From a virus, in IMG/VR virus record IMGVR_UViG_3300044846_002469, positions 1 through 35,703 of that record: a stretch of 35,703 bases of DNA. The stretch is one strand, 5' to 3'. Both the position numbers and the translations under genes were made by a program. This document shows positions 18,805 to 31,840 of this stretch, piece by piece. Under the pieces are notes generated by a model, which worked only from the letters and a program-made list of their open reading frames with translations, did not search any database and was not told the origin of the DNA. Within the stretch, counting starts at the first letter, position 1, and every line of letters begins with the position of its first letter.

Positions 18805-19983
18805 TTATTTTTTAAAGTAATGTGTATAAACTCCGTATCTTATTGAATCCATTAAGTGATTGAATGTATCTATAGGTGTGTTGGTACTTTGCCCTGTTTT
18901 GTTATCCTTTGCCCACATATACTTTTGTCGTTCCTCATGCAAATTTAATGAATTAGATGTATAAAATACTTTAAATTCTTTTAATCTGATAATACCTGCA
19001 TTTATTGAACCTTGCCCTTTCCTTGCAGGTAAGCAATTCCTCATTCCTAATCTTCTTAGTTGTGCTATTTGGTCAGGATCATGGTCGCAATAAATCGGAG
19101 TACTGCTAGTAAACCCATTAGCCTCAAATATTTGTTTCATTTGTATAGGTGCAATTCCGGGAGTATAGCATATCTCATGCACAAAAATACTTTCCCCAAT
19201 TCTTACAATTTTAACACCTGCTGTAGGATCATTCGTATATCCAAAGTCTAAACCTCCTATAAAGTCGTTTTGATGTGGGAAATCGTTATAATCAATAACT
19301 TGCCAATCATTATATATGATACCTTCAAGATTCCCTGTTAAACCCCTTGCGTAAACCCTCCATAAATCCTTATCCTTAATAGATTCCGTTCTTCTATGTT
19401 CCTCCTCTGATAAAAATGGGTTGTGCCTATGGTCTGAAATAATTAACTTAACATCTGCACTTATATCGTTTGTTTCTTTATCCGTTCCTATTAACTTGTC
19501 ATGCGCCCAAAATGGTGCTGATGGGTTATAATCTACAAATGTCCTTACCCTTGTACGCTTTGCAACTTGCCAAAAAATACCCCACGTTATACCATTAGCC
19601 TCATTAAAAAATGAATACTGCCTTTTACCTTGCTTTGCGCCTTGCTCATTCTCATAACTTGTAAACTCAATAATCCACCCACTTTTAAAATATATCATTC
19701 TATCCGTTTCGTTCCAATTCTTAACATACTTTTTTAATCCATCGTTTGAATTATAGATATTTTTAGCTACTCGATAAGCACCCTTTTTCAAATTGGGTAC
19801 ACTTTCCCCTACAACCGTTATAATAGGGTCTTCCGTTGGTGCTTTGTTAGTCGTTGCAATTGTAAATAATAACTGCATAATTGCATACGTTTTGCCGGAA
19901 TCAGTACCTCCCTGATTAATAACTACTTGTTCCGTTGCATTATAATTTGCATAATATACCGGTGATACATCAAATTTATACAT
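18805..19983 (-). CDS. terL: Terminase large subunit, 392 aa
   Basis: Walker A is GGTDSGKT (residues 25-32, K31), and FFNEAN (E128) is a likely catalytic carboxylate. The nuclease domain begins at GGLDFGYTNDPTAG (D246), followed by PIYCDHDPDQIAQL and the end HLMDSIRYGVYTHY, the usual RNase-H-like set. The enzyme pumps DNA into the prohead and cuts it. At 392 residues it is short but in range for PBSX/terminase_3-like members. It overlaps the small subunit stop by 8 nt. The type of genome ends is not decided, but the overlap of the assembly ends would suit headful packaging. Confidence 0.93.
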   Translation of the reverse strand: MYKFDVSPVYYANYNATEQVVINQGGTDSGKTYAIMQLLFTIATTNKAPTEDPIITVVGESVPNLKKGAYRVAKNIYNSNDGLKKYVKNWNETDRMIYFKSGWIIEFTSYENEQGAKQGKRQYSFFNEANGITWGIFWQVAKRTRVRTFVDYNPSAPFWAHDKLIGTDKETNDISADVKLIISDHRHNPFLSEEEHRRTESIKDKDLWRVYARGLTGNLEGIIYNDWQVIDYNDFPHQNDFIGGLDFGYTNDPTAGVKIVRIGESIFVHEICYTPGIAPIQMKQIFEANGFTSSTPIYCDHDPDQIAQLRRLGMRNCLPARKGQGSINAGIIRLKEFKVFYTSNSLNLHEERQKYMWAKDNKTGQSTNTPIDTFNHLMDSIRYGVYTHYFKK

Positions 19984-20548
19984 TTACTTCAGTTTCTGAG
20001 TGTGAAAGATTAGCGTTAACAGAAAATACATTTATTGTAGGTGCTACAGTTGCCACGTCTTCCCCTGCTGAGTTCGTTTGCGCTGATTTCGTTGGCGCAT
20101 AATCACCTTCAATTTTACTTATCTCTGCTCTGATTTCTTTTATTGTCTTGTTTATAGTCGTTTTTTCTATTGCGTTCATTGGTCGTGTACCCGTTAACAA
20201 TTCGCCCTCTGCAAAAGTAGATACTATCATAATATTTGCCTCTAATTCATCATTCAATTTCTTAATTTGTTCCTGCAATTCAAGTAACCTGTCTATTTTT
20301 GATTTAATGCCACTTTTTAAGCCTACTTCTGTATTCGCTTGTATTTGGTTGACAATTGCAATATCTTTGAATTTTGACCACTCTTCTAGCGTTTTATAAT
20401 ATATTTTGATATGTCTTGCCTTCGCAATTGTAAAACGTTGCCTTATATCATTGTAAGTGCTAGTATTTTCCGTATTTCCTGCCTCAAATAGTTTTATATA
20501 TTCGTTTCTGAGTGCGACTTCAGTTAGAAACTTTTTTTTCTTTTCCAT
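19976..20548 (-). CDS. terS: Terminase small subunit, 190 aa
   Basis: Gene position directly before the large subunit, with an 8-nt overlap, and an N-terminal helical segment (FLTEVALRNEYIKLFEAGN, then TYNDIRQRFTIAKARHIKIY) that looks like a DNA-binding HTH support the call. The centre (LLELQEQIKKLNDELEANIM) would form the oligomerisation coiled coil. The C-terminal third is threonine/alanine/serine-rich and probably disordered, and would contact the large subunit. The family is divergent and the assignment leans on order. Confidence 0.75.
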   Translation of the reverse strand: MEKKKKFLTEVALRNEYIKLFEAGNTENTSTYNDIRQRFTIAKARHIKIYYKTLEEWSKFKDIAIVNQIQANTEVGLKSGIKSKIDRLLELQEQIKKLNDELEANIMIVSTFAEGELLTGTRPMNAIEKTTINKTIKEIRAEISKIEGDYAPTKSAQTNSAGEDVATVAPTINVFSVNANLSHSETEVNV

Positions 20549-21787: not shown

Positions 21788-21994
21788 TCAATATTCCTCA
21801 ATTGCTTTTTTGATTTTGAAATAATTGGTCACGCTTGTATCGTTAAGCCCTCGCATGATTCGTGAGGTCAAGCCCTTGTCAAGTTGGGTTAAGTTAGCCA
21901 ATTGAATGTTAGTTAATTTTTTGTTAACCTGTATTAATCTCAATTGTTTTATAGTGGGTAGTTCACCCGCCCCGCAAAATTTGCATTTATTCAT
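21788..21994 (-). CDS. Small HTH protein with CxxC N-terminus, 68 aa
   Basis: Residues 4-8 read CKFCG, a zinc-knuckle half, followed by an HTH of the XRE/Cro kind (TIKQLRLIQVNKKLTNIQLA, then LTQLDKGLTSRIMRGLND, about 14-54), where the turn and recognition helix can be seen. It probably binds DNA and could regulate the early-to-late switch, as it ends its unit before the terminator at 21734-21762. A second zinc pair is not present, so metal binding would need a dimer. The start at 21994 keeps the CxxC. Confidence 0.6.
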   Translation of the reverse strand: MNKCKFCGAGELPTIKQLRLIQVNKKLTNIQLANLTQLDKGLTSRIMRGLNDTSVTNYFKIKKAIEEY

Positions 21995-22615: not shown

Positions 22616-23278
22616 TTAATCTTTTAATGTGTAAAAATCGCTGTTAATTATTTTATTTATACATTCTTCGTGTAGTTCCTGTAGATGTTGGTCTAGTGTA
22701 AAAAATTCATTTAAAGATATCTCTACAAAGGCTATTTTATTACTTTTTTCCTCTTCGTGTGTGGTTGCTTCGTGTGTTGCAATCAGTTTATTTTCTATTA
22801 ATTCAATATCAAAAATCAGATAATCTTCTTTATTAGTTCTATTATCAATTACCTCAAATTCAAAGATTTTCTCTAAATTCATATTATCAAATTCATGTTT
22901 AAAGGCTTTTAAATAAAAGTTGCTAAAAAAGTCCTCGATTTCGCTTTTAAGGTCGTAAAATGATTCCTCAGCGTTTCTACTTGCTAATAATGAGGCTAAT
23001 AATTCGCTATTTATATTTTCTATAGTATATCCGTATTCTATAGCAATTTCCAAAGAATTTGAAAGACTTTGGTCATGTTCTTTTAAGTAGTTTATTGCAT
23101 CTGAATAGTAAATTATATCAATATTAAAGCCTCCGTTCTCTTGTAGCATCTCATAAATAGAGTTATAAGCATCTGAATAGTCTATATCTTCAATATTGAT
23201 ATAGCCTAAAATATCGACCTCAGTTTGTAAATTGCTTAAGAATTTTTCAATTGTGTTGTGTGTGTTTTGTGTGTTCAT
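22616..23278 (-). CDS. Acidic hypothetical protein, 220 aa
   Basis: A strongly acidic protein (DIDYSDAYNSIYEMLQENGG, IIYYSDAINYLKEHDQSLSN, then NAEESFYDLKSEIEDFFSNF) made of helices, with an IEDIDYSDAY / IDIIYYSDAI partial repeat near the N-terminus. Conserved SDA-type segments recall unknown phage and plasmid proteins. Acidic proteins in early units are often DNA mimics or inhibitors of host enzymes, but no such match is shown here. Confidence 0.6.
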   Translation of the reverse strand: MNTQNTHNTIEKFLSNLQTEVDILGYINIEDIDYSDAYNSIYEMLQENGGFNIDIIYYSDAINYLKEHDQSLSNSLEIAIEYGYTIENINSELLASLLASRNAEESFYDLKSEIEDFFSNFYLKAFKHEFDNMNLEKIFEFEVIDNRTNKEDYLIFDIELIENKLIATHEATTHEEEKSNKIAFVEISLNEFFTLDQHLQELHEECINKIINSDFYTLKD

Positions 23279-23841: not shown

Positions 23842-24666
23842 TTAGTTATTAATTAATTGCTTTCCTATTTTATTCATGCTCTGAATGTTAATCTTGTGAC
23901 ATCCTATTTTTAACGTGCCGTTTAATGAGGTTACAATGTATCCGGCTATGTTATATCCTTTAATATCTTTTTTTGCTAAAATGAGGCTATAAAGTGCCTT
24001 TGCTTCGTTTATAGTTGTTCTTACCTGTTGGCTTGTTTCGATATATTCACCACACTGAGAGAATCTTAAGTAGTCCTGTTCACTTTTAATAAAATTTACT
24101 TTGTATTCTTCAAAATTTTTTATTGACTTGTTTAAAATAGATTTTTGCTTTTTTTCGTTGGCTTTTTTAAGTTCTTTTAATGTATCTTTAAAATTATCTA
24201 CGTTTAAAGCTATTTGAGTGACTAAATTTGCTATATTTTTAAGTTCTTTATACTTATCATTTTTTATATTTTTATTAAGTGGGTATTCTTTGAACGCCTC
24301 AAATTTACTTAATATAGCATCTATATATAAAGCCGGCTTTTTAGCTTTTAATAATTTGTCATATTGATTTTTAACAAAATTTAATACTAAGTCTAAATTT
24401 ACATTATTTTCATAGTATTGTTTATATTGCCGGGTTGCACCTGTTACTTGTGCAATATGTTTATTAGTAGTCATACTGTAACCTGTGTTATTAATTAATA
24501 CAAAGGTGCTATTTTCATGCTCTATAAACTCCGCTAGCTTATAATGATATCCGTATGAATAGCATTTTTTACCGTAAAAGAATACGTTTGAACATTTAGC
24601 GTGTTCCTGTGTCTGCTGAGCGAATAAGTGTAATACGTCAGCTGAGTTTGTAAATACTTTTTTCAT
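23842..24666 (-). CDS. Conserved hypothetical protein, 274 aa (phage/plasmid type)
   Basis: The N-terminal region reads FYGKKCYSYGYHYKLAEFIE and then VLINNTGYSMTTNKHIAQV (residues about 30-77). I recall this YSYG-x-HY...GYS-x-TT-x-KH pattern from many phage and plasmid proteins annotated only as conserved unknowns. The middle is a lysine-rich helical region (KNFKDTLKELKKANEKKQKS-type), and the C-terminus is beta-rich (GYNIAGYIVTSLNGTLKIG). It is the first gene after the promoter at 24693-24725 and next to the candidate origin, so a role in replication or host takeover is possible. Confidence 0.65.
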   Translation of the reverse strand: MKKVFTNSADVLHLFAQQTQEHAKCSNVFFYGKKCYSYGYHYKLAEFIEHENSTFVLINNTGYSMTTNKHIAQVTGATRQYKQYYENNVNLDLVLNFVKNQYDKLLKAKKPALYIDAILSKFEAFKEYPLNKNIKNDKYKELKNIANLVTQIALNVDNFKDTLKELKKANEKKQKSILNKSIKNFEEYKVNFIKSEQDYLRFSQCGEYIETSQQVRTTINEAKALYSLILAKKDIKGYNIAGYIVTSLNGTLKIGCHKINIQSMNKIGKQLINN

Positions 24667-24692
24667 TTTTTATTTATTTTTATTATTTATTG

Positions 24693-24725
24693 CAAATATA
24701 CAATTGTCTGTTTTTATTTAGCAAA
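24693..24725 (-). promoter_or_regulatory. Bacteroidetes-type promoter next to the candidate origin
   Basis: TTTG (24725-24722), a 21-nt spacer and TATATTTG (24700-24693) on the minus strand fit the consensus. The expected start is near 24686, giving a leader of about 20 nt before the ATG at 24666. It drives the run of small genes down to 21788. Confidence 0.7.
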
Positions 24726-24739
24726 TTTATTTATATATA

Positions 24740-25028
24740 GCCTATAAATTTTGTCTATATAGTTGCTGAAAGCCTTTATTTATAAGGATCATTAAAATTT
24801 AATTTCAAAAAAAAATATTTTTTTGCTGATTTTATACGCTTTAATTTTACCCAATAAAAATAGGCTTATATATTGGCTGATTATTTAGGCTTTTTTTCCT
24901 GTAAATCAATATTTTTTTTGCTGATTTTATAAGGATCAATTTTTTTGGGCTGATTCTGATGGATCATTTTTTTTCTGATGGATCATTTTTTTTATTTTAT
25001 CCTGTTTTACTTTTTTTTAAAAGTCTAG
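24740..25028. other. T-tract-rich non-coding part of the candidate origin, with direct repeats
   Basis: No gene is seen here. On the plus strand the stretch is a chain of T-tracts with embedded repeats: a near-identical 22-23-nt element containing GCTGATTTTATA at 24815-24836 and 24909-24931; a perfect 19-bp tandem (CTGATGGATCATTTTTTTT) at 24956-24974 and 24975-24993; and several GGATCA words. It lies next to the iteron array and has the low stability expected of a DNA-unwinding element. The role as part of an origin is inferred. Confidence 0.6.
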
Positions 25029-25238
25029 TGTATTAATTAACTGAGGGTATGTATTAATTGGCTGATCCTCTGTATTAATTGGATCACCCTCTGTATTAAT
25101 CAATTTACCCTCTGTATTAATCAATCGGGTGTATTAATTAAATTATTTATGGGGTGTATTAATTGAATTACCCTATGTATTAATTGAATTAGTGGGTGTA
25201 TTAATCAATTTAGTGGGTGTATCAATTGAATTGGTTAA
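25029..25238. repeat. Iteron array: ten TGTATTAAT repeats on a 21-bp period
   Basis: Copies start at 25029, 25050, 25071, 25092, 25113, 25130, 25155, 25176, 25197 and 25218. The steps are 21 bp except one pair of 17 and 25, which sum to 42, so the register is kept. The core is TGTATTAAT followed mostly by TGAATTA or CAATTTA; the last copy is TGTATCAAT. Most copies are preceded by GGG or CCC. A period of two helical turns places every copy on the same face of DNA. This suggests cooperative binding of one protein, most likely a replication initiator. It directly follows the VRR-NUC gene stop. Confidence 0.85.
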
Positions 25239-25570
25239 TAATATTTTTTACATATTTCTTTAAACTCTTCCAATGTTCTGACAATAACATAAATTTGGTT
25301 TAAACTTTTTACCTGAGTTTCAAATATTTTTTGTTCTTTGCCTTGCTTTCCTATTTCTGTTTTTAACTCAATAAAAATAACTTTTTCGTTTACTACTAGA
25401 ATCAAATCAGGTACTCCTGTTTTAACTCCCATAGCTTTCATCCTGTTACCTTCAATTTTATTTTTGGCTTTGTTATTACAATGAAATAAACATTTATCGT
25501 GTTTTTTACCATACTCTAAAGAATACCATTGTACTATCTGCCCTTGTAAAATATCTTCGTTTCTATTCAT
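25235..25570 (-). CDS. VRR-NUC domain nuclease, 111 aa
   Basis: The motif GVPDLILVVNEKVIFIELK (residues about 49-67) carries the PD-(D/E)xK active site: D in VPD, E and K in IELK. It is followed by the conserved GKQGKEQKIFETQV helix, which together define small phage VRR-NUC nucleases. Such enzymes act as structure-specific nucleases beside SNF2/DEAD-type helicases. The gene overlaps the helicase stop by 8 nt, supporting a functional pair in replication or recombination. The start at 25570 gives a standard stand-alone length. Confidence 0.88.
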   Translation of the reverse strand: MNRNEDILQGQIVQWYSLEYGKKHDKCLFHCNNKAKNKIEGNRMKAMGVKTGVPDLILVVNEKVIFIELKTEIGKQGKEQKIFETQVKSLNQIYVIVRTLEEFKEICKKYY

Positions 25571-27065
25571 GTGTTATTAATTTTAATTTACTTTCTAGTG
25601 TTTCAATTGCTTTATCTTGAATCCATTTATTATATTTATTATTATATTCTTCGCACCATTTTGCTGTTTCTTTCAACATTTCAGAATATATTACTTCTTT
25701 CAATCCTTCCGTATCTTTATATTTTGAATAATAATTTACTAAGTGGTCTGCTATCTTATGTAATACTGCAAAAGGTTTCCAATTTCTTTCTTTTGCCATC
25801 GCTAACAATCTGTTTATTGGTAATTCAATTGGTTTTGTACTGATTAATAAAACTAATTTTTGCTCTTTCTCTTCTTGTTTTTGTCTTTCTGCCTCTTCTT
25901 CAAAATCGTGTCCACAACTGATACAAACTAATTTTCTTGTGTGCTGTAAATAATGACATTCAGGACATTCTTTTACCGGTGCTACTCCATTGCTTTTTTT
26001 ACCATCATTTAATTTTGCGCCATGTTTAAAATAGCTTTGCCAATCAAAAAAATCTGTATATGCTCCATGCCTCGTAGTATTTTTACCTAAATCTAAAACT
26101 AAAAACTTTTCTTTATTTTCTGATAATCTTGAACCTCTACCTACCATCTGCAAGTATAATGACAAACTTTTAGTTGCTCTATTTAAAATTATTGTTTCTA
26201 CAGTTGGCTCATCGAATCCTGTGGTAAGTACTCCTACATTACAAAGAATAGCGTGTTTATTTGTCTTAAACCAATTTATTATCTCTTTCCTTTCGTTTTT
26301 TTCTGTTTCACTTGAAATTGTTTTTACTTCTAATCCTTCACTTTCAAAGGCTTTTTGTACTAATTCGTTATGTTTCAGATTAACATTGAATATTAATGTT
26401 TTTTTACCTGCTGATTTTTCCCAATAAGCATTGATAACATTCTTTACCATTTTTTCACTAGAGTAAAAATCTTGCATTTGTTTTTCATCAAACTCACCTT
26501 TTTTTACTTTCCACTTTTCCTTGCTTACTAAATCTGAGGCGAATCCATATACATCACAATTCAATAAGTATTTATTTTTTATTAATTCTTCTACACTTGT
26601 ACCTAAAATTAAATTTTCGTAATAATTACTTAATGGATTTTCTGCAATTGGTGTTGCTGTCACTCCTAAAATCTTTTCTTTTCTATTTTCTTCAAAATAA
26701 GGTATTTTTTTAAAATTACCTATATGACACTCATCAATTATTATTAAACCGAAATTTGGTAGCTTTTCTATTCTTTTATAGGTAGTTTCTACCATCCCTA
26801 TGTAATAATCAAAATTATGAGGTATATTTTTTACTCCGGCTGATATTATAAAACATTTTTCGCCTAAACTTTTTACTGCCTGTTCTAATAATTCTATTCT
26901 GTGAACAAGTATTAAAACTCTTTCTGTAGTTTCTGTGAAATGGTCTTTTGCAATCTCAATGAATGTAAAAGTTTTTCCACTTCCTGTTGGCATTTGTAGA
27001 ATGTTTTTTCTAAATTCTGTGTTTTGAACTTTGTTTTTTATCTCAATTTGATAGTTTCTTAGCAT
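25563..27065 (-). CDS. Superfamily 2 DEAD/DEAH-type helicase with zinc finger, 500 aa
   Basis: Motif I is MPTGSGKT (residues 25-32), motif II DECH (111-114), motif III TATP (about 135-138), and motif VI QMVGRGSRL near residue 310. The first domain begins with LRNYQIEI, the Q-motif position of type I-restriction-like/UvrB-like SF2 helicases. Near residues 375-395 CPECHYLQHTRKLVCISCG is a four-cysteine zinc ribbon. Such proteins unwind DNA for replication or repair. It sits between the primase and the VRR-NUC nuclease. A 272-nt repeat-bearing gap separates it from the primase gene. Confidence 0.88.
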   Translation of the reverse strand: MLRNYQIEIKNKVQNTEFRKNILQMPTGSGKTFTFIEIAKDHFTETTERVLILVHRIELLEQAVKSLGEKCFIISAGVKNIPHNFDYYIGMVETTYKRIEKLPNFGLIIIDECHIGNFKKIPYFEENRKEKILGVTATPIAENPLSNYYENLILGTSVEELIKNKYLLNCDVYGFASDLVSKEKWKVKKGEFDEKQMQDFYSSEKMVKNVINAYWEKSAGKKTLIFNVNLKHNELVQKAFESEGLEVKTISSETEKNERKEIINWFKTNKHAILCNVGVLTTGFDEPTVETIILNRATKSLSLYLQMVGRGSRLSENKEKFLVLDLGKNTTRHGAYTDFFDWQSYFKHGAKLNDGKKSNGVAPVKECPECHYLQHTRKLVCISCGHDFEEEAERQKQEEKEQKLVLLISTKPIELPINRLLAMAKERNWKPFAVLHKIADHLVNYYSKYKDTEGLKEVIYSEMLKETAKWCEEYNNKYNKWIQDKAIETLESKLKLITHE

Positions 27066-27069
27066 ATTT

Positions 27070-27331
27070 ATTACAGATTATTTTTTTGAAAGTATTGATT
27101 TTATTGAGTTATTACACATTACAGATTATTTTCACTTTTTTAAACTCTCCTTCGTAAAAAAATTTTTTTTTATTTTTTTTTATTTTTTTCTAGGTAGTTT
27201 AATAATATATAATCTGTAATATACATATTTTCCTCTAATAGTCAATGATAGCAAGGCATTACAGATTATTACAGATTATTTTTCTAATATATAACTCATT
27301 GATTATCAAGCATTACAGATTATTACAGATT
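27070..27331. repeat. Cluster of seven ATTACAGATT repeats between primase and helicase genes
   Basis: This gap carries no gene. ATTACAGATT starts at 27070, 27118, 27258, 27268, 27312 and 27322, and as its reverse complement AATCTGTAAT at 27211. The last four form two head-to-tail pairs with 10-bp period (one helical turn) 54 bp apart. Between 27150 and 27190 a long A/T-tract lies in the middle. Helically phased short repeats beside replication genes suggest a binding site for a replication or regulatory protein. The helicase ATG is at 27065, so repression of its transcription is an alternative. Confidence 0.75.
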
Positions 27332-27337
27332 GCATTT

Positions 27338-29458
27338 TTAGAAAGAATGTGTAATTTCTTCTGTCTTAAATTTCACCTTATAAACTCTCTGAGTTTTTCC
27401 ATCAACTAATTTTATTATTGGCTCAAATCCACATTTTTTCAACGCTGTTCCAATTCTTTTATTTGTTGTTCTGAAACTTGGATATTTGCTTTCTAAACTC
27501 AATTTTATTTGTGTATTTGTCATTTCTGTGTATTTGTCAACCATAACACAATCTAAAATCAATTCTTCTTCACTCATAACCTCTTGGTTTATTAATGTTG
27601 ATTGGTTTAAACCTGCGATTTCATCTGCTGTTAAGAACCATCCTGTTCTATCTTTTTGCCATTCATGGTACAATTCAATAAACAATTCTGTTTTATCTAT
27701 TTCTCTGTATTTTATTAAATCAAAATTTGTTACATTTATTGGTATAATACGTCTATTTCCTGTAGGATCATTAATTACCTCACTTTCATTTGATGTACCT
27801 CCCAAAACTGCTAACCTGTTTAAATCTTCACTAACTTTGCCATAAGGTCTCCTGATTGAAAAAGTTTGCTGACTAGATAACCTTTTTAATTTTGTAGCAT
27901 CTTTTTTACTTTTACCTCCAAACTCATCATCCACGATTAAAAGTTTTTTTGTCATCAAGATTTCAGAATCTTTGCCCTCATCTAAATTTGATTCTGCATA
28001 ATATTCTCTCAATTCTGTAGGTAATAAATTTCTAAAAAACTCTGTTTTGCTTATTCCCTGCTTACCATTTAATACTAATATCATCAATGAATATGTGCCA
28101 TGTGCTGAACCTATTATAGATAATAGCCATTTTTTTAAGAAAATCTGCAAATAATCATCTACTTTTAGTTGTTTCCCATCAAATAAAATATTATGTTCAA
28201 TTTCAAAGCAACTGCAAAGCAATTCAAAATTTCCTGTAGGCTTTAAATGTTCATTCTTTGCGAAAAATTGTTTTATTGGATTAAATGAGGTTGTATTATC
28301 AGGATTTTCAATTAGTGTAAATATCTTGTCTTTACTTAAATCAGGATCAATTAAATCCCAACATTTCGTATAAAACTTAGCTAAAACCCTATCAGTCATC
28401 TGCTCTTTGTTAAATTCGTAGTTTCTAGTTATCTCATTAAATCTAATATTAGAAATTTTGATTAAATCAACTACTTCATCTAGTGTTGTTCTTTCTTTAT
28501 CTTCATCCTTAATTTTATCTACTAAACCATTGTCTTCAATTCCTAATTCTTTTAACTTAATTTTTGCCTCTTCTTTTGTGGCTGATAATTTAGTTATCTG
28601 AGTAATTTGTTTTGTTTTTTCTGATACAATGTTTATACCGGCTTGTTTGCAATGATAATAGATAGTTTTAATGGTAATACCACTTTTAGAACGCTTTAAA
28701 GCAATATCATACATTTTATCAGTTGATTCCCTTGTATATTTTGGTGATGTGCATGAAAATGCGTGATAGTAATTTCTACCATTTACCCCAAATCCATCCA
28801 CTAGAGCAAAAGAAAATTTAACCCATGTTTGATAGTCATCGCATAAATTTAGGTATTTATTAGAGTATTCCCTTACAATCTCATCAAAATCGTTTTTTGT
28901 CGTTGGGTAGTAAACATTTGTATCTTTTTTGGTATCTTTCTTTACATATTGTTTGAATACCTTTGCTTTGTCATTCTGATACAAATAAGGGTCATAAGAT
29001 ACGAATCTCAATGAACATACATTTTTAGGTGCAGGATCAACTATCAATTTGAAATTATCTAAAAAATATTTTTCTAATCCTAAATAAGATTCTTTGTGTT
29101 TTTCAGGGTTAATCTTAAAAAATACTGCAAATCCATATCCACTCACTGAGGTGTGTACTGCATATACATAAGGGTCTTTTTTTATTGCCTCAATATCAAA
29201 TTTCACGACTTGGTCTTTTGCATCTAAATCAATGCAAATAAAACCACTATGTTGTGTTAATTTGTCTTCTTTACGTTCTGTAAATGTTCCACTTGTTGTA
29301 ATACATGGTAATTTTTGTTTATCTAAATTACCTGTTCTATAGGCTAAAACTTCATCCTGCCATAAACCATTTTTCACATTTGATAAGTAATTTTCAAATT
29401 CAATTTCTGAGTATGGTTTAGAGGATTGGTTACCTGCTTTGAATAAATTTATTTTCAT
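27338..29458 (-). CDS. Primase-helicase: BT4734-like N-terminal domain plus VirE-like SF3 ATPase, 706 aa
   Basis: Residues 72-80 (GFICIDLDA) hold the D-x-D of archaeo-eukaryotic-primase-like folds, followed by HTSVSGYGFAVFF (102-114) as in BT4734-type domains of Bacteroidetes. A PriCT-like helical part (about 195-275, YQTWVKFSFALVDGFG) follows. The C-terminal half is the virulence-associated E (VirE) helicase-like ATPase: P-loop GKQGISKT (465-472, K471) and Walker B LLIVDDEF (506-513). The layout is that of phage and mobile-element primase-helicases that start replication. A structured leader lies upstream. Confidence 0.87.
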   Translation of the reverse strand: MKINLFKAGNQSSKPYSEIEFENYLSNVKNGLWQDEVLAYRTGNLDKQKLPCITTSGTFTERKEDKLTQHSGFICIDLDAKDQVVKFDIEAIKKDPYVYAVHTSVSGYGFAVFFKINPEKHKESYLGLEKYFLDNFKLIVDPAPKNVCSLRFVSYDPYLYQNDKAKVFKQYVKKDTKKDTNVYYPTTKNDFDEIVREYSNKYLNLCDDYQTWVKFSFALVDGFGVNGRNYYHAFSCTSPKYTRESTDKMYDIALKRSKSGITIKTIYYHCKQAGINIVSEKTKQITQITKLSATKEEAKIKLKELGIEDNGLVDKIKDEDKERTTLDEVVDLIKISNIRFNEITRNYEFNKEQMTDRVLAKFYTKCWDLIDPDLSKDKIFTLIENPDNTTSFNPIKQFFAKNEHLKPTGNFELLCSCFEIEHNILFDGKQLKVDDYLQIFLKKWLLSIIGSAHGTYSLMILVLNGKQGISKTEFFRNLLPTELREYYAESNLDEGKDSEILMTKKLLIVDDEFGGKSKKDATKLKRLSSQQTFSIRRPYGKVSEDLNRLAVLGGTSNESEVINDPTGNRRIIPINVTNFDLIKYREIDKTELFIELYHEWQKDRTGWFLTADEIAGLNQSTLINQEVMSEEELILDCVMVDKYTEMTNTQIKLSLESKYPSFRTTNKRIGTALKKCGFEPIIKLVDGKTQRVYKVKFKTEEITHSF

Positions 29459-29968: not shown

Positions 29969-30064
29969 TAGTCAGGACAGGATTTGAACCCGTAATCTAA
30001 TTAAAGATACCAATTATGTCGCTTAAGCCCCTAAAATGTGCGTTACCAATTCCGCCACCTGACT
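29969..30064 (-). tRNA. Class II tRNA (leucine-like), anticodon arm non-canonical
   Basis: The acceptor stem AGTCAGG (30064-30058) pairs with CCTGACT (29976-29970), with A73 at 29969. The D-arm GCGGAATTGGTAACGC is that of leucine tRNAs. The T-arm ACGGG-TTCAAAT-CCTGT is complete, and an ATCT/AGAT variable arm is present. The stretch between D-arm and variable arm is longer than usual and does not form a good 5-bp anticodon stem. CTTAAGC (anticodon UAA) and TTTAGGG (UAG) are both possible loops. CCA is not encoded. Confidence 0.65.
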
Positions 30065-30995: not shown

Positions 30996-31481
30996 TTAGT
31001 ACATTATTTTTATATATTTATCTAAATCAAAAAAGCCTTTCCCATTGTCTAAATCATAGTCATAAAACTTGATATTGCTTGTTTCATTGTGTAACTTCAT
31101 TTCAATCATTCTGCATCTTAAAATGTGTTTAGTAACTCCTATCAATTTAGCAATTTTATCAATGCTCATCTTGTCATAATTCAATTTAACTATCTCAATT
31201 TGTTCAGGTGTTAATTCTACTTTTCTATTTATACTAGGTTTTTTATTTAAAAATCTAACATGAGCAACTAACTGCTGACTACATCCAATTTCTTTAGCAA
31301 TCTCAATATTTCGTTTATGCAACATTGTGGCTATCTGTTTACATATTATTCCTGCCTCATGCTTAATACCAAAAGATGTTCTTTTTCTACTAATTGTTGA
31401 AATTGAAATATTGTACATTTTTGATATTTCTTTTAATTTCATTTTAGGGTTATTTTTTATAAATTCGTCTAATTGTTCCAT
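30996..31481 (-). CDS. Multi-HTH DNA-binding protein, 161 aa
   Basis: Three helix-turn-helix units can be read: KLKEISKMYNISISTISRKR (about 16-35), NIEIAKEIGCSQQLVAHVR (about 58-76) and SIDKIAKLIGVTKHILRCRM (about 105-124). Three separated HTHs suggest that the protein reads an extended or repeated DNA site. It overlaps the DnaA-IV-like gene by 13 nt, so both are made together, and a joint role at the iteron arrays is plausible. A purely regulatory function is also possible. No family name can be given. Confidence 0.7.
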   Translation of the reverse strand: MEQLDEFIKNNPKMKLKEISKMYNISISTISRKRTSFGIKHEAGIICKQIATMLHKRNIEIAKEIGCSQQLVAHVRFLNKKPSINRKVELTPEQIEIVKLNYDKMSIDKIAKLIGVTKHILRCRMIEMKLHNETSNIKFYDYDLDNGKGFFDLDKYIKIMY

Positions 31482-31840
31482 CCTTTAAAATTTAATGCTG
31501 TAAAATCAAATTTATTATCTACTATTAGATTGTTAACAGAATCAACAATATTTTTAAACAATGGCTCTGTTTCAATATGTTCTTTTGCTAACCTTACATG
31601 GTATAAAATACTTGTATGGTCTTTTGGTATTATGCTAATTATTTTACCAATATCGTGAAATGCGTATCCGTTATTATGTAATAAATAACTTGCTATCTTT
31701 CTAGCGTTAACAAACTTTCGATGTCTTTTTTGCCCTATTAAATCATCTAATTTGATGTTTGAATAGTCGCATATCGTATTCAATAATGAATACTGCCATG
31801 CACTTAATTTTTTGATGTGTTCTTTTACTTCTTCTTTCAT
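31469..31840 (-). CDS. DnaA domain IV-like DNA-binding protein, 123 aa
   Basis: Residues about 35-88 (IGQKRHRKFVNARKIASYLL, then FHDIGKIIS, and IPKDHTSILYHVRLAKE) follow the pattern of the DnaA C-terminal domain: the basic helix R-x2-R-x5-A, the IG-x2 turn and the signature [RK]DHTSV-x-H. That domain binds DnaA boxes. There is no AAA+ ATPase part, so it would recruit or replace a host factor, or act as a phage initiator at repeats. It is overlapped by the multi-HTH gene. The domain match is by eye but strong. Confidence 0.75.
   Translation of the reverse strand: MKEEVKEHIKKLSAWQYSLLNTICDYSNIKLDDLIGQKRHRKFVNARKIASYLLHNNGYAFHDIGKIISIIPKDHTSILYHVRLAKEHIETEPLFKNIVDSVNNLIVDNKFDFTALNFKGWNN

Follow-up and report, generated by a model that had tools for sequence, protein, structure and literature searches.

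Iteron arrays, such as those of Rep_3 plasmids and the lambda origin, consist of direct repeats of about 20 bp that lie in noncoding DNA beside replication genes, and phage and plasmid origins typically contain repeats of this kind. Small-ParB-type centromeres, too, typically have phased arrays of 5-10 direct repeats. In pac regions of the SPP1 type, direct repeats are combined with bendable A/T-rich DNA upstream of the terminase genes, and the site spans the start of terS (PMC4737164). A further arrangement is that of the SaPI and SCCmec origins, which depend on D5-type helicases: SaPI Rep helicases bind repeat origins located directly downstream of their own genes, and in vitro binding to a site of this kind is reported for SCCmec Cch2 (PMC7581432). 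From one small Bacteroidota phage, two separate and testable cis elements can now be set beside these systems, namely a family-wide origin candidate made of ATCTGTAA sites and a lineage-restricted phased array.

The window, meaning the whole stretch of DNA analysed, comprises positions 1-35,703 and is an entire IMG/VR virus record (35,703 bp, 28.6% G+C). Nearly all of its genes are on the minus strand (Table 1). The early part encodes a methyltransferase, an exonuclease, HTH proteins, the primase-helicase, a helicase and a VRR-NUC protein; the late part encodes a metallophosphoesterase, the probable TerS, TerL, portal, capsid, tape measure and endolysin. The array is located between the VRR-NUC gene and a 274-aa gene, where the early replication operon gives way to the packaging operon; at 568 bp, this noncoding gap (24667-25234) is the longest in the record. 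It starts 8 bp past the stop codon of the VRR-NUC gene, directly after it as the preliminary description had stated. No intrinsic terminator was found between the two operons. The predicted promoter in the gap would serve the operon that begins with the 274-aa gene, a family rare in named phages (three records, partial matches). The structure models of the 68-aa and 190-aa proteins are of low confidence and hint only at HTH and small-terminase folds. A stand-alone DnaA domain IV protein (PF08299, E 1.9e-12) is encoded at 31469-31840 on the minus strand, and a similar protein is annotated in Cellulophaga phage phi46:1.

Table 1. Coordinates of the array, the rival origin candidate and the neighbouring genes in the window
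Feature	Position	Strand	Remarks
Large terminase subunit (TerL)	18805..19983	-	
Probable small terminase (190-aa)	19976..20548	-	Precedes TerL; helical core and beta hairpin in a low-confidence model
68-aa CxxC/HTH-like protein	21788..21994	-	Present in the window phage, L085 and L134; low-confidence model
274-aa gene, phrog_7247	23842..24666	-	First gene after the array; function unknown
Predicted Bacteroidota-type promoter, TATATTTG	24693..24725	-	Pattern match only; matched at the same place in L085
T-tract-rich noncoding flank	24780..25028	.	Contains a 19-bp tandem duplication (TTCTGATGGATCATTTTTT)
Array, ten 9-bp cores (TGTATTAAT; last = TGTATCAAT)	25029..25226	+	21-bp register; copy 6 (25130) 4 bp out
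VRR-NUC domain gene	25235..25570	-	Last gene before the array
Superfamily 2 (ResIII) helicase gene	25563..27065	-	
Rival origin candidate	27066..27337	.	A-rich core with seven ATCTGTAA/TTACAGAT sites around it; lies directly behind the primase-helicase gene
VapE/PriCT-2 primase-helicase gene	27338..29458	-	

The array had been described as ten copies, one of them with a C, on a 21-bp period. This was confirmed, with nine exact copies of TGTATTAAT and one TGTATCAAT (at 25218). The cores start at 25029, 25050, 25071, 25092, 25113, 25130, 25155, 25176, 25197 and 25218, which gives the claimed steps of 21, 21, 21, 21, 17, 25, 21, 21 and 21 bp. It had also been claimed that the steps of 17 and 25 bp compensate each other so that all copies face the same side of the helix. 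The register is indeed regained after copy 6, but this copy itself does not share the common face: at 10.5 bp per turn, its displacement of 4 bp places it about 137 degrees off the face of the other nine, so 9/10 copies are in helical register. GGG or CCC is found ahead of 8/10 copies, in agreement with the triplets reported before most of them. The T-tracts beside the array show no phasing at 10-11 bp (p 0.64-0.97).

The density of the core is far from that of shuffled DNA. The maximum number of copies of any 9-mer per 200 bp was nine in the array versus two or three in 200 dinucleotide shuffles of the whole 35,703-bp window. Outside the array, only five exact copies of TGTATTAAT were found on both strands of the whole window, against about 2.8 expected. 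When the 15 units of the window and of the related contig L085 were compared, 134/135 letters of the core columns were identical, and most of the 12 spacer columns were weakly conserved. A near-invariant core with variable spacers means that the core is under selection, and recent tandem duplication alone does not account for the array. Taken together with conservation at the same locus in L085, the pattern indicates that proteins very probably bind the array, which is most simply read as a row of sites for one protein.

In order to find related arrays, viral contigs were scanned for three cores at 21-bp steps, which returned L085 and L084. In the 7.6-kb contig L085, five cores follow VRR-NUC at the position seen in the window, every step being exactly 21 bp, and the intergenic region can be aligned to that of the window. 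At the place that corresponds to the flank, it has T-tracts and a different duplicated block of about 19 bp. Its packaging module is close to that of the window (TerL 93%, probable TerS 73% and 68-aa HTH protein 65% identity), and it is the closest relative in the replication module too (helicase 87%, VRR-NUC 88%). L084 is not a relative, as its 21-bp spacing sits in a coding repeat. L147 and L168 were likewise discarded because their spacing comes from coding heptad repeats. A looser scan with two cores gave 45 stretches, mostly chance or coding matches. One of the 45, L166, has (C/T)GTATTAAT at offsets of 0, 42, 63 and 126 bp. These sites lie in a long stretch of noncoding DNA upstream of terS-terL, and a gene homologous to the 274-aa gene over its full length is close by. 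This 6.8-kb contig contains no replication genes, and its TerS and TerL belong to families other than those of the window. L166 probably represents a third, sparse instance of the array, with the caution that heptad codons in genes can also produce 21-bp grids, as in L168. The instances thus amount to two clear ones (window and L085) and one probable one (L166).

The expectation that the repeats are conserved in related phages was borne out in L085, with five copies at the exact 21-bp period and at the same locus, but not in L009, L011, L013 and L015. These four are 80-81% identical to the window in the primase, 80-84% in the helicase and 72-76% in VRR-NUC. The DNA that follows VRR-NUC in them is different and lacks the array. 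When their whole contigs were searched for two cores with up to three mismatches, only isolated matches were obtained, at a rate close to that of a reversed-pattern control. In the packaging module, they show little or no similarity to the window. A distant DNA search of the array region in phage records gave no match, and no VRR-NUC relatives were found by a contig search in genome contigs. Neither the array nor the sites that follow the primase gene were found reported in a limited literature search.

A different candidate for the origin is found about 2 kb from the array, directly behind the primase-helicase gene. At 27066-27337 there are seven ATCTGTAA/TTACAGAT sites, or eight if the AT[CG]TGTAA variants are included, with pairs of ATCTGTAA sites 10 bp apart and in both orientations. 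Of the nine ATCTGTAA/TTACAGAT sites in the genome, seven lie in a 260-bp stretch inside the primase-helicase/helicase gap. The A-rich core is easily melted: the 100-bp segment at 27151 ranks among the 0.3% of lowest duplex stability in the genome. All 21 primase-helicase gaps examined, from phages with protein identity as low as about 53%, had the cluster, with 124 sites versus 3.7 in shuffles (maximum 8); the set includes near-duplicate phages, so independent cases are fewer, but the effect is large. Homologous gaps with the cluster, also in the forms TGTGTAA/TTACACA, are found for instance in L009, L011, L013, L017, L020, L040, L070, L073 and L081, and a few relatives have almost no gap behind primase-helicase (L034, L036 and L076, for example).

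This layout resembles that of the SaPI/SCCmec origins, with short repeats directly downstream of the helicase gene (PMC7581432), here on both sides of an A-rich core that would serve as the A/T-rich unwinding element, a likeness that the array does not share. The cluster differs from those origins in its motif and in the host group, and the two are likened by layout, not by binding. Its organisation makes the ATCTGTAA cluster the more likely main origin, rather than the 21-bp array. If right, this would make the origins of many uncultured phages identifiable by a simple rule, ATCTGTAA sites behind a VapE-type primase-helicase, and it would correct the obvious but probably mistaken choice of the more conspicuous array as origin. 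In the more distant Flavobacterium phage snusmum6-1 (L129, 5740-6000), the same layout is seen with another motif, GGTTACCT pairs (GGTTACC), directly behind the primase. The array core and the ATCTGTAA sites were not considered the same motif: TGTAATAAT is one base apart from TGTATTAAT, but it is created solely where two tandem ATCTGTAAT units meet, and several relatives do not have it; the likeness was therefore treated as chance.

The function of the array itself can be read in several ways. We favour, tentatively and at somewhat below even probability, a site at which cooperative protein binding controls the late/packaging module over an auxiliary origin and a packaging start site. This reading is based on the position of the array at the boundary of the early and packaging operons, on its occurrence with the same TerS/TerL set and 68-aa HTH-like protein in the window and L085, and on its place upstream of different terminases in L166. 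A phage- or host-encoded protein would bind the cores side by side on one helix face over about 200 bp. The resulting nucleoprotein structure, beside the A/T-tract region, would control the promoter of the late/packaging operon and may also control the access of the packaging machinery. The 68-aa CxxC/HTH-like protein is a candidate binder; a shared packaging protein is an unlikely ligand because the L166 TerS and TerL come from other families. The control site is further favoured by the phages that share the replication module but lack the array and have unrelated or barely similar packaging modules, by the better origin candidate at 27066-27337, and by the sparse L166 array upstream of terS-terL on a contig without a replication gene. 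It is weakened by the small number of carriers (only two or three phages) and by the distance of the late promoter, about 300 bp from the array, which is far for ordinary activation. Moreover, L085 is closest in the replication module too, so the two modules are not cleanly separated. Rows of 5-10 phased repeats are also commoner in iterons or centromeres than in operators.

The preliminary description had taken the array for a probable initiator-bound, phased iteron origin. The phased protein-binding array is well supported, given the core/spacer pattern and L085; the origin role is weakened, as the array is missing beside near-identical primase, helicase and VRR-NUC genes. An iteron-type origin, or an auxiliary origin or copy-control array besides the 27.1-27.3 kb site, in which an initiator would bind the ten cores and melt the A/T-rich neighbouring DNA, is accordingly a possible but doubtful reading. 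The array does adjoin the replication operon and A/T-tract-rich noncoding DNA, and by coincidence a Vagococcus fluvialis contig (L148, 2185-2300) carries, downstream of a gene for a Rep_3 initiator, four copies of TGTATTAAT that are spaced by 21 bp and interleaved with AGTATTACT. The L148 array is an unrelated iteron array that shares the same core. In contrast to the iteron arrays of theta-replicating plasmids and phages, no cognate initiator was found for the array here (nothing Rep_3-like among the proteins searched), and it is not inherited with the replication genes, as seen in L009, L011, L013 and L015. These phages, together with L085, which has both modules, indicate that inheritance of the array is not simply tied to the replication proteins. 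The DnaA-domain-IV (PF08299) and multi-HTH proteins, too, are conserved in L140 and L143, both without the array. The duplex stability of the array and its flank looks unremarkable (the flank has 21% G+C, but is only at about the 17th-27th percentile), in contrast to the DNA around 27151, which is among the least stable. The family-wide conserved sites directly behind primase-helicase weigh against this origin as well. GC skew, proposed earlier as a check of the origin, was monotonic and uninformative, because essentially all genes are on one strand.

A packaging recognition site (pac or cosB-like), which the small terminase would wrap before the large terminase cuts, is unlikely. It would agree with the position upstream of terS-terL in the window, L085 and L166, with the resemblance of repeats and A/T tracts to SPP1-type pac regions (PMC4737164), and with the co-occurrence with the window-type TerS/TerL pair, which is confounded by the overall closeness of L085, where both modules are shared. 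However, the array lies about 4.5 kb from terS, whereas the SPP1 pac spans the terS start, and its repeats are much more regular. The L166 terminases are unrelated. The window itself is a linear contig. A speculative and unlikely proposal is that TGTATTAAT cores on a 21-bp grid form a portable cis element which Bacteroidota phages with unrelated terminases share, placed in the noncoding gap before the packaging genes; a common phage or host protein bound there would switch the genome from replicating to being packaged. That the array is a tandem duplication without function or a coding remnant is improbable. The period equals seven codons, and coding heptad repeats give the same spacing by chance (L084, L147 and L168), but here the frames are interrupted by stops and broken by the 17/25 steps, the core is exact even at third positions while the spacers vary, and L085 has kept it at the same locus. 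Least probable is a centromere-like partition site, or an accessory-protein binding site of a plasmid-like prophage state; the number and phasing of the repeats would suit it, but no ParA-, ParM- or TubZ-like gene and no integrase were found among the proteins scanned.

Other readings were dropped. A coding repeat was rejected as the frames are broken, and DnaA boxes because the core is unlike TTATCCACA. The GGG/CCC triplets were not retained as an essential part of the array since they are not kept in L166. RNA folding of the minus-strand array surpasses that of shuffled sequences in the window (z -4.6), whereas in L085 it does not (z -1.1). An RNA element was rejected because the fold is not consistent and repeats of the self-complementary ATTAAT fold easily. 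No Rfam families were detected at the array.

Several further elements were observed. In the window, an Rfam tRNA match (44.9 bits over 96 bases) without an ARAGORN call lies at 29969-30064 on the minus strand and is possibly an unusual tRNA. The gene at 22616-23278 (minus strand) encodes a 220-aa protein of unknown function, the N-terminal half of which has relatives in more than 30 other phage contigs. Arrays of TTAAACATAGTA(GG) with steps of 17 to 29 were seen in L106, L112 (1217-1322, for example), L114, L117, L118 and L125; they are located behind the terL stop codon in several phages and also in other intergenic places. Arrays with a 16-bp period (CTCTTACAGG) were found near the end of the phage stretch examined in L098 (7922-8043) and L101 (7335-7488).
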